Under the pieces are notes generated by a model that searched no databases, was not told the origin of the DNA, and was given only the letters and a program-made list of their open reading frames with translations. Of a stretch of 64,000 nt of DNA, positions 6,904 to 8,469 are shown piece by piece (positions within the stretch are counted from its first letter, which is position 1; each line of letters opens with the position of its first letter). The position numbers were made by a program, and so were the translations under genes. The DNA comes from Marinobacter sp. F4218 (lineage in GTDB: Bacteria > Pseudomonadota > Gammaproteobacteria > Pseudomonadales > Oleiphilaceae): contig NZ_JAHZIL010000003.1 in the NCBI RefSeq assembly GCF_019443085.1, positions 186,001 through 250,000 on the forward strand, given 5' to 3'.

Positions 6904-7525
6904 GTCTCACCCTTATCTGCCGCCAGTCCGCCGGGGTGTCCACATCTTCGTGGACTCCGGGAATATCAACCCGGGTCGCCCGGACGCTGGCCAGTAACTG
7001 GCCAGCGCCACAATCACCTTCCAGTTCCATCACCTCGGGCCACAGCCATCGTGGCAGATACGCCGGCACGCCGGGCCGACCGTCGTAATCCGCAGCGACT
7101 GGCTGGTTTGGTACAAACCTGGCGGCCTCGCCAAATGCCCTCAATGAATCTACGTCCAACAGCGGCTGGTCCGCCAGCAGAACGAAGACTCCCCGGGCTC
7201 TGGGTCCCAAACTGGCCAGGCCAGTCGCCAGGGATGCTGACAATCCCTGGTGCCAGTCCGGTGATCTTAGCCAGGCGGTCGGTTGCGAGGAGCAGCGAAA
7301 CCGGATCAGCGGATACCAGGCCCCACAAACGACCCTGACGTCCTTACTGAGGACCCGCCCCAATTCGATGGCCCGGTCCAGCAGAATCCCCTCCTGTCCC
7401 GCCAGGGGAAGCAGCATTTTGGGTCGCCCGTAACGGCTCGAGGCGCCTGCAGCAAGGATAAGTGTCGGAAATTCCTGATCGGTTACGCGCGGGGAGAAGT
7501 TTATGATAAGCGTCTCGTTAGTCAG
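6863..7525 (-). CDS. MobA/MocA-like nucleotidyltransferase, start codon unclear
   Basis: The frame encodes an NTP-transferase-like protein. The nucleotide-binding loop [13 protein letters not shown] lies just upstream of the first ATG (7417), followed by the MLLPL segment, then LLADQPLL (the metal-binding Asp region) and the [10 protein letters not shown] segment. The family moves CMP or GMP onto molybdopterin or similar cofactors. Starting at the ATG would remove the essential glycine loop, so translation must begin upstream. The frame stays open to a TAA at 7526-7528, but no ATG, GTG or TTG lies in that stretch. A CTG at 7525, an ATC or ATA, or a sequence error are the options. The end given is the maximal open extent. 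The 3' end overlaps the response regulator gene. Confidence 0.72.
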
Positions 7526-7572
7526 TTACGTGAAGTCTGGAGCAGAACCAGACTGCCGGTTTCAATGATTTT

Positions 7573-7581
7573 TGCTAGAAT
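7573..7581 (+). promoter_or_regulatory. Possible extended -10 promoter of the PTPS-like gene
   Basis: TGC followed by TAGAAT resembles an extended -10 element 36 bp before the ATG of the PTPS-like gene. The matching -35 position (7553-7558) is poor, which is usual for extended -10 promoters. It falls between the MobA-like and PTPS-like genes, which are divergent. Confidence 0.35.
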
Positions 7582-7617
7582 TCCGCCATCATTCAACCAT
7601 ACCCGCCCGGACTTTCA

Positions 7618-8469
7618 ATGAATCACCTCTTTGTGGACAACCTCACCGTCATTGATTTCGCATACTTGGAGCCAACTCGCGGCCTGGTAGGCGAAAGCTG
7701 GATTGCGGACGTGGTGCTGGGCGGCGACCTTGATGATCAGGGTATGGTATTCGACTTCAGCAACGTGAAGCGGACCATCAAACGGGTCATTGACGAGCGC
7801 GTGGACCACCGGCTTGTCGTTCCCCGCGGATACGAAGGCCTGTCCTGGAACGAGGAGGAACCCGACACGTTTCATTGGGCCCTGACCGACGGCAGCGAAA
7901 TCATCCATCGCTCTCCGGACGAGGCGGTGGTCTGGCTTTCGGCCGAGCGAGTCGTACCGTCTGTGGTTGCCAGCCTGCTGGAGCACGAACTCAAGGCGGT
8001 CCTGCCCGCAAATGTCACGACAGTGGAGATCAATCTGCGGGAAGAGGTAATTGAGGGCGCCTACTATCATTACGTACACGGGCTTAAGAAGCATTTGGGC
8101 AACTGCCAGCGAATTGCCCATGGCCATCGCTCTCCCATCCGGATCGACCGGAACGGCCATCGGGATCACGATCTGGAACGCCGTTGGTCCAAGCTTTGGC
8201 GCGACATTTACGTGGGCTCCGAGGAAGACGTAGTCAGGCGCCATGTGGGCAACGACGGCGTTCGCTATGTCACCTTCGAATACGAGGCGAACCAGGGCGA
8301 GTTTGCGCTCACGCTGCCCGAGGATCGAGTTTACATGCTGGATACGGATACGACGGTGGAATTGATCGCGGCCCATATCGCGGACAAGCTGAAACTGGAA
8401 TTTCCAACCGACACGATCCGGGTCAAAGCCTACGAGGGCGTCGGCAAGGGGGCCATCGCCGCGCGCTAG
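7618..8469 (+). CDS. Duplicated 6-pyruvoyl-tetrahydropterin synthase/QueD-like protein with split active site
   Basis: The 283-residue protein looks like two fused PTPS/QueD domains (a single QueD is about 120 residues). Copy 1 keeps GMVFDF (42-47) and VDH (62-64), equivalent to the DF and LDH motifs of QueD, but lacks the zinc histidines. Copy 2 has HYVHGLKKHLGNC (151-163) and HGH (168-170), matching the zinc ligands and catalytic Cys. It has no DF/LDH pair and ends with VKAYEG (Glu 273), like the VKET end of QueD. Together they supply about one complete set of catalytic residues. Its substrate is unknown; pterin or preQ0 chemistry is inferred from the family. A terminator follows 59 bp later. 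Confidence 0.78.
   Translation: MNHLFVDNLTVIDFAYLEPTRGLVGESWIADVVLGGDLDDQGMVFDFSNVKRTIKRVIDERVDHRLVVPRGYEGLSWNEEEPDTFHWALTDGSEIIHRSPDEAVVWLSAERVVPSVVASLLEHELKAVLPANVTTVEINLREEVIEGAYYHYVHGLKKHLGNCQRIAHGHRSPIRIDRNGHRDHDLERRWSKLWRDIYVGSEEDVVRRHVGNDGVRYVTFEYEANQGEFALTLPEDRVYMLDTDTTVELIAAHIADKLKLEFPTDTIRVKAYEGVGKGAIAAR

Follow-up and report, generated by a model that had tools for sequence, protein, structure and literature searches.

A probable bimodular QueD in Marinobacter with catalytic residues divided between two fused PTPS/QueD-type T-folds

Several lines of evidence suggest that a 283-residue protein of Marinobacter sp. F4218 is a bimodular QueD (6-carboxytetrahydropterin synthase) in which the residues of a single catalytic set are distributed over two fused T-fold domains. 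QueD belongs to the pathway for queuosine, a tRNA base. The protein is encoded on the + strand at positions 7618..8469 of the 64,000-nucleotide stretch of DNA that we analyzed, hereafter the window, and its function is read from genomic context; we put the probability of this reading at roughly 0.8. The protein scores 46.4 bits against the Pfam PTPS model PF01242, above the gathering score of 22.4 bits, with the best-scoring stretch covering residues 25-69 only, and the same model is matched by all 26 family members, the window protein included (E ≤ 0.001). Because the protein reaches neither the cut-off of the QueD equivalog model TIGR03367 (38.9 vs. 89.25 bits) nor the QueD motif, we file it as a bimodular variant within the PTPS superfamily. 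No Pfam match to the QueF_N or QueF domains was found in it at E ≤ 1, and the PTPS-IV motif FGPAQ is absent from it. Our search of the literature, which was limited, returned no description of a bimodular QueD architecture.

The N-terminal half (residues 1-143; 7618..8046, +), which carries neither the zinc ligands nor the Cys, aligns with canonical QueD in HHalign (99.0%, E 4.9e-18), as does the C-terminal half (residues 144-283; 8047..8466, +), which carries the predicted metal site (96.8%, E 2.4e-10). We infer the duplication from these two matches to QueD, since the direct comparison of the N and C profiles is weak (28.7%, E 6e-4). A full-length AlphaFold2 model built from 73 sequences (pLDDT 88.8, pTM 0.86) matches solved structures mainly through its N half, with P. 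vivax PTPS 3m0n aligned over 139 residues (Z 10.0, rmsd 2.7). The C half modelled alone (pLDDT 82.2, pTM 0.77) matches PTPS 3lze over 128 residues (Z 13.3, rmsd 2.5) and E. coli QueD 4ntk_E over 97 (Z 10.5, rmsd 2.5). In the models, the C half is laid out as strand-strand-helix-insert-helix-strand-strand, and the N half as strand-strand-helix-insert-helix followed by a single long strand that leads into the C half; the last T-fold strand of the N half is therefore absent or has no assignment of its own. The Cys loop (residues 158-163) is modelled with pLDDT below 50. The original prediction had described the protein as a duplicated PTPS/QueD domain, and the predicted models, in which both halves match PTPS/QueD folds (Z 10.0 and 13.3), support two fused T-folds of this type with complementary losses.

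The closest solved folds to the predicted models of both halves are Plasmodium PTPS enzymes. This similarity, a substrate branch point in common, and the presence of folE2 two genes upstream in one Klebsiella plasmid are the points that speak for placing the protein in the folate branch, as an enzyme of PTPS-III or PTPS-VI type. We nevertheless regard such an assignment as very improbable: the window protein reads RIAHGH at residues 165-170 and thus lacks the ExxHGH motif of PTPS-III, a separate ExxHGH protein is encoded alongside the bimodular one in three genomes (G103, G220, and G256), and the operon and phage partners described below are deazaguanine genes.

The two halves retain different parts of the QueD catalytic set. 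All features listed here lie on the + strand, and each is invariant in an alignment of 38 rows that combines a 27-sequence script alignment with 11 plasmid, phage, and viral-contig sequences, two of the Klebsiella rows being near-identical. The N half keeps the DF of QueD as D46-F47 (7753..7758), the Lys of the first helix as K51 (7768..7770), and the Asp-His pair as D63-H64 (7804..7809); GMVFDF and VDH are indeed found at residues 42-47 and 62-64, where they had been placed. When this half is aligned with QueD by HHalign, E18 takes the position of the first His and T20, beyond a gap of 7 residues, that of the Cys; V24-G25-E26 falls at the HGH, with V24 and E26 opposite the two histidines. The loss of the zinc histidines from the first half, as originally predicted, is thus confirmed and extends to the cysteine. 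In the C half, H154 (8077..8079), predicted zinc ligand 1, aligns with the first zinc His of canonical QueD, that of YGHRL; C163 (8104..8106) aligns with the catalytic Cys; and H168-G169-H170 (8119..8127), with predicted ligands 2 and 3, aligns with the HGH. The second half had been credited with the zinc ligands and the Cys at residues 151-170, and the residues hold while the range is better given as 154-170. C163-QRIA-H168-G-H170, at 8104, is the single C-x(3-5)-HGH motif in the ORF, and the two other matches in the window lie outside it.

Additionally, the C half holds T246-V-E248 (8353..8361), whose T and E are the invariant residues and which aligns with PTAENIA, the PTAE motif of QueD, and E273 (8434..8436). 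QueD carries a pterin-anchoring Glu, the role predicted for E273, and because the HHalign alignment ends at residue 266 this equivalence was drawn by eye; E142, placed opposite E273 in the N half, varies across the 38 rows. The C half is without DF and DH, in agreement with the loss of the DF/LDH pair that had been claimed for it. The catalytic set of three His, Cys, Asp-His, T/E, and Glu (the last by eye) is therefore complete in the window protein. The original prediction estimated that each element occurs about once; each occurs once per chain, divided between the halves, and this split pattern is kept across the family in all 38 rows.

Among 26 sequences, of which the other 25 are 39-90% identical to the first, 36 residues are invariant. 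These include D46, F47, K51, D63, and H64 in the N half and Y152, H154, G155, L156, H159, G161, C163, Q164, H168-R171, T246, E248, E273, and G274 in the C half. A coincidental residue pattern is ruled out by this conservation. Widening the alignment to 38 rows removes ten of the 36, H159, G161, and Q226 among them, and leaves 26 invariant residues that include every catalytic element.

Relatives of the window locus were collected as 80 loci kept of 133 found, and 76 of the 80 are titled Marinobacter. The window gene is adjoined by tRNA-Glu, tRNA-Ala, and a gltX-like ORF; of the 80 loci, several of which are short, 68 have a gltX match and 67 a match to the upstream NTP-transferase. The reading frame is open over 282-290 aa in 77 of the 78 relatives read. 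The exception, in Marinobacter similis (L073, from 6001), is frameshifted from about residue 225 onward, through either a real mutation or a sequencing error.

Given that each catalytic element is present once, the Asp-His of the N half and the Cys, metal, and Glu of the C half probably meet in one shared interdomain pocket, a predicted site for which residue complementarity and the precedents of PTPS and QueF both argue. Burgisser, in 1995, reportedly described for PTPS, to go by the title, "an intersubunit catalytic triad motif." The active sites of PTPS lie at subunit boundaries, according to a passage of PMC7546909, and in bimodular QueF, as an excerpt of PMC5372742 has it, the motif and the Cys/Glu reside on different T-fold domains and are joined at an interdomain site. 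Bimodular QueF (the E. coli/Vibrio type, PF14819 + PF14489) resembles the window protein in its tandem, weakly homologous T-folds and its divided site, but it is a different enzyme with different chemistry, and the window protein has no QueF match. We hypothesize that a tandem pair of PTPS-type T-folds came to form one chain, that each half may then have lost what the other supplies, and that the N-half Asp-His and the C-half zinc site, Cys, T/E, and Glu would make up one site at the N/C interface, resembling the intersubunit site of single-domain PTPS. Such an enzyme would convert 7,8-dihydroneopterin triphosphate to 6-carboxytetrahydropterin for use by QueE, QueC, QueF, and TGT, and in Marinobacter it would be the sole QueD. 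Bimodular QueD is apparently an independent case of the route taken by bimodular QueF. The earlier description of this route as unusual is fair for QueD, although QueF provides a close precedent in the same pathway.

Phage genomes provide one part of the context from which we read the function. Matches over at least 80% of the query occur in 51 of 50,697 phage records, 50 of the 51 being Vibrio phages, and the 20 matches listed are about 28% identical to the window protein. The gene is flanked by dCMP deaminase and folE in phi-Grn1, phi-pp2, and KVP40, where queF and queC (identified by Pfam in KVP40) follow farther along, and in phage 1.081.O it comes ahead of folE, a gene resembling tRNA-guanine transglycosylase, queF, and queC; the gene is inside a 7-deazaguanine cluster that contains queC in all four of these Vibrio phages, the ones that we read (L192-L195). 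The phi-pp2 copy is annotated as 7-cyano-7-deazaguanine reductase. KVP40.0120 is given as QueD, after Hutinet 2019, in an excerpt of PMC8056088, and a passage of PMC12028318 describes 15% dG modification of schizotequatrovirus DNA that is consistent with dPreQ1. From that passage the pathway would therefore run, with supply by the host possible. PHROG 14221, of "unknown function," corresponds to the bimodular family, as it is matched by the KVP40 protein at E 1.5e-203 and by the window protein at E 5e-22. KVP40.0120 and its Vibrio schizotequatrovirus relatives share the architecture, the split residues, and approximately 28-29% identity with the window protein; unlike it, they serve phage DNA modification and have H159 and Q226 replaced. 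Three viral-contig matches (L184-L186) of 44-45% identity are located at the ends of their contigs and might represent flanking host sequence.

The distribution of the bimodular form among bacteria provides further evidence. A profile of Marinobacter sequences finds matches in 45 of 274 Gammaproteobacteria (E ≤ 0.001), 16 of them full-length and the rest partial, and a broader profile at E ≤ 1e-20 recovers the same 16 of 274. In a phylum-wide sample, the broader profile is positive in 26 of 299 genomes, all 26 in Gammaproteobacteria; three genomes are shared between the sets of 16 and 26, which leaves 39 distinct positives. A QueD over the TIGR03367 cut-off is found in none of the 16 positives vs. 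126 of 258 others (Fisher p 4e-5) and in none of the 26 vs. 111 of 273 others (Fisher p 5e-6), with shared ancestry ignored in both tests. This cut-off is strict, as it is passed by 4 of 9 matching control genomes, and genomes scored as being without QueD may therefore hold divergent ones. Both situations occur in genus g235: the bimodular form without a QueD over the cut-off in four genomes (G330, G360, G503, and G512) and the canonical form without the bimodular one in two (G443 and G488). In genus g235 and in family f185, the surroundings of the bimodular gene and those of canonical queD have no synteny in common.

When the 16 positives were searched with PF01242 (E ≤ 0.001), the bimodular form was the only PTPS-family protein in 10. 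The other six (G000, G272, G103, G220, G256, and G143) encode further members, which are of the PTPS-IV type in G000 and G272 and of the ExxHGH type in G103 and G220; G256 has one ExxHGH protein and one CxxxHGH protein, the latter of 137 aa and, at 88.4 bits, just below the TIGR03367 cut-off. The extra protein of the Marinobacter genome (L001, G000:C2:749108-749488) was considered as the real QueD of that genome and ruled out, as it is of the FGPAQ type, which an excerpt of PMC5445326 gives as the PTPS-IV subfamily motif, and has LHGA replacing HGH. The PTPS-IV protein of G272 (L114) is similar to L001. A 351-aa ORF upstream of L001 resembles, by eye, an alcohol dehydrogenase.

The remainder of the pathway is present in the positive genomes. 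A strong QueC is found in 38 of the 39 (15/16 + 23/23); in G008, which is 75% complete, the QueC match reaches only E 7e-6. QueC is over the cut-off in 246 of the 274 genomes of the class, and, being this common, it attests to the pathway rather than to an association. TGT is found in all 39 positives and in all 14 control genomes, and QueF_N in 7 of 16 positives. All 16 positives tested with TIGR04349 have a QueE match, of which 10 are over the cut-off, two more exceed 270 bits, and four are weak (G272, G000, G117, and G139); the weak QueE of G272 sits in the operon described next, and that of G000 is 60% identical to it and lies beside queC. Since each half is incomplete by itself, a non-catalytic or structural relative can be imagined. 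We consider this scarcely credible for a family whose strictly conserved residues cover the whole catalytic set and which provides the only PTPS-family protein in 10 of 16 genomes, each of which also has a QueE-type match. In a separate observation, G026 encodes a strong QueC with neither a QueD match (E ≤ 0.001) nor the bimodular form; QueC thus need not imply a detectable QueD, and further QueD replacements or salvage may exist.

A genomic link to queC and queE was found in 3 of 20 bacterial neighbourhoods. In G272, G314, and G349, which represent three genera of family f4, queC, queE, and the bimodular gene run in the same direction and overlap or nearly so. In the other 17, tblastn with the QueC and QueE of G272 detected neither gene within about 4 kb. 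The queC of the Marinobacter genome adjoins queE away from the bimodular gene, and no C-x(2-5)-HGH frame was found in the 12 kb read near this pair.

These findings bear on whether the protein is instead a member of the PTPS family that acts on another substrate or yields another product (sepiapterin-type, biopterin-type, or new) for which the split site was reshaped, the original prediction having allowed that the substrate may be new. The window protein is far from TIGR03367, and its metal motif is CxxxxHGH, one residue off both the CxxxHGH of PTPS-I (so given in a passage of PMC5041015) and the CxxxxxHGH of PTPS-II, than which it is one residue shorter. Furthermore, in an excerpt of the AGeNNT paper (PMC5445326), clusters with CxxxxHGH and CxxxHGY, which may or may not include the window protein, are called "PTPS-II-like" and have FolE among their neighbours. 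The queC-queE operons, the phage preQ0 clusters, the exclusion of a QueD over the cut-off, and the retention of every QueD catalytic element all run against a different substrate, which we accordingly judge unlikely. Neither a new substrate nor a sepiapterin-type role is supported, as the neighbourhoods together with the exclusion of canonical QueD indicate the ordinary QueD step. Thus, we favor the reading of the window protein as a bimodular QueD that, judging from this context, probably performs the ordinary QueD step of preQ0 synthesis. It has the fold and the catalytic elements of QueD (PTPS-I, TIGR03367, a single T-fold) and, in part of the genomes and phages, also its gene partners, whereas QueD has one undivided T-fold and CxxxHGH and the window protein has CxxxxHGH and lies below the family cut-off.

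Copies of the gene are also found on plasmids, with matches in 602 of 72,556 plasmid records, 563 of them from Klebsiella. The matches listed are annotated as "hypothetical protein," "isocitrate dehydrogenase," or "6-carboxytetrahydropterin synthase," or carry no annotation. In two K. pneumoniae stretches and one Pantoea plasmid stretch (L188, L189, and L190) the gene lies among zinc-starvation genes: the neighbours are GTP-binding proteins (the one scanned is of the CobW family) and ThrRS, and, in at least one stretch, zigA, dksA, folE2, carbonate dehydratase, CysRS, dihydroorotase, an M14 peptidase, and hemB. In L190, the gene is immediately preceded by an IS1 transposase gene, and its annotated CDS is extended and bears the name "isocitrate dehydrogenase." The Amphritea plasmid copy has no zinc-starvation neighbours, and a Vibrio record carries no annotation. 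With a Zur-box consensus as the pattern, a Zur-like palindrome starts 45 bp before dksA in the Klebsiella stretch L188 (1 mismatch) and another 98 bp before zigA in the Pantoea stretch L189 (0 mismatches). Weaker matches to this consensus occur inside both loci, and the whole window has five at ≤ 3 mismatches; at window 7300-7700, ahead of the Marinobacter gene, no such box was found with it at ≤ 4 mismatches. An excerpt of Haas 2009 (PMC2770081) counts the families of most of the K. pneumoniae and Pantoea neighbours as Zur-linked and also mentions a Zur-regulated cluster on pLVPK, as well as QueD paralogs in which the zinc residues are retained; queD2 is under predicted Zur control according to a passage of PMC9508795. 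These Zur-linked paralogs (QueD2) resemble the Klebsiella and Pantoea copies in being set among zinc-starvation genes, but the QueD2 of A. baumannii (7v0f) has a 200-residue sequence and is therefore too short to be bimodular.

We tentatively raise the idea, which we think somewhat doubtful, that bimodular QueD is a metal-adapted isozyme in which one metal site per two T-folds and the altered CxxxxHGH loop would hold scarce zinc tightly or use another metal. If true, this would explain why the gene was gathered into Zur-type islands on plasmids of Klebsiella and Pantoea and how marine bacteria and phages can depend on the bimodular form alone; it would also mean that divided-site tandem T-folds evolved independently in QueD and in QueF, which are neighbours in the same pathway. 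More broadly, the bimodular form is a proposed QueD for genomes without any over the cut-off of the standard model, and this assignment proposes a function for PHROG 14221 and for the protein matched on the 563 Klebsiella plasmid records. It would also provide, after QueF, a second example from the same pathway in which an intersubunit site apparently became interdomain by tandem duplication and complementary loss, and this evolutionary route becomes directly testable.
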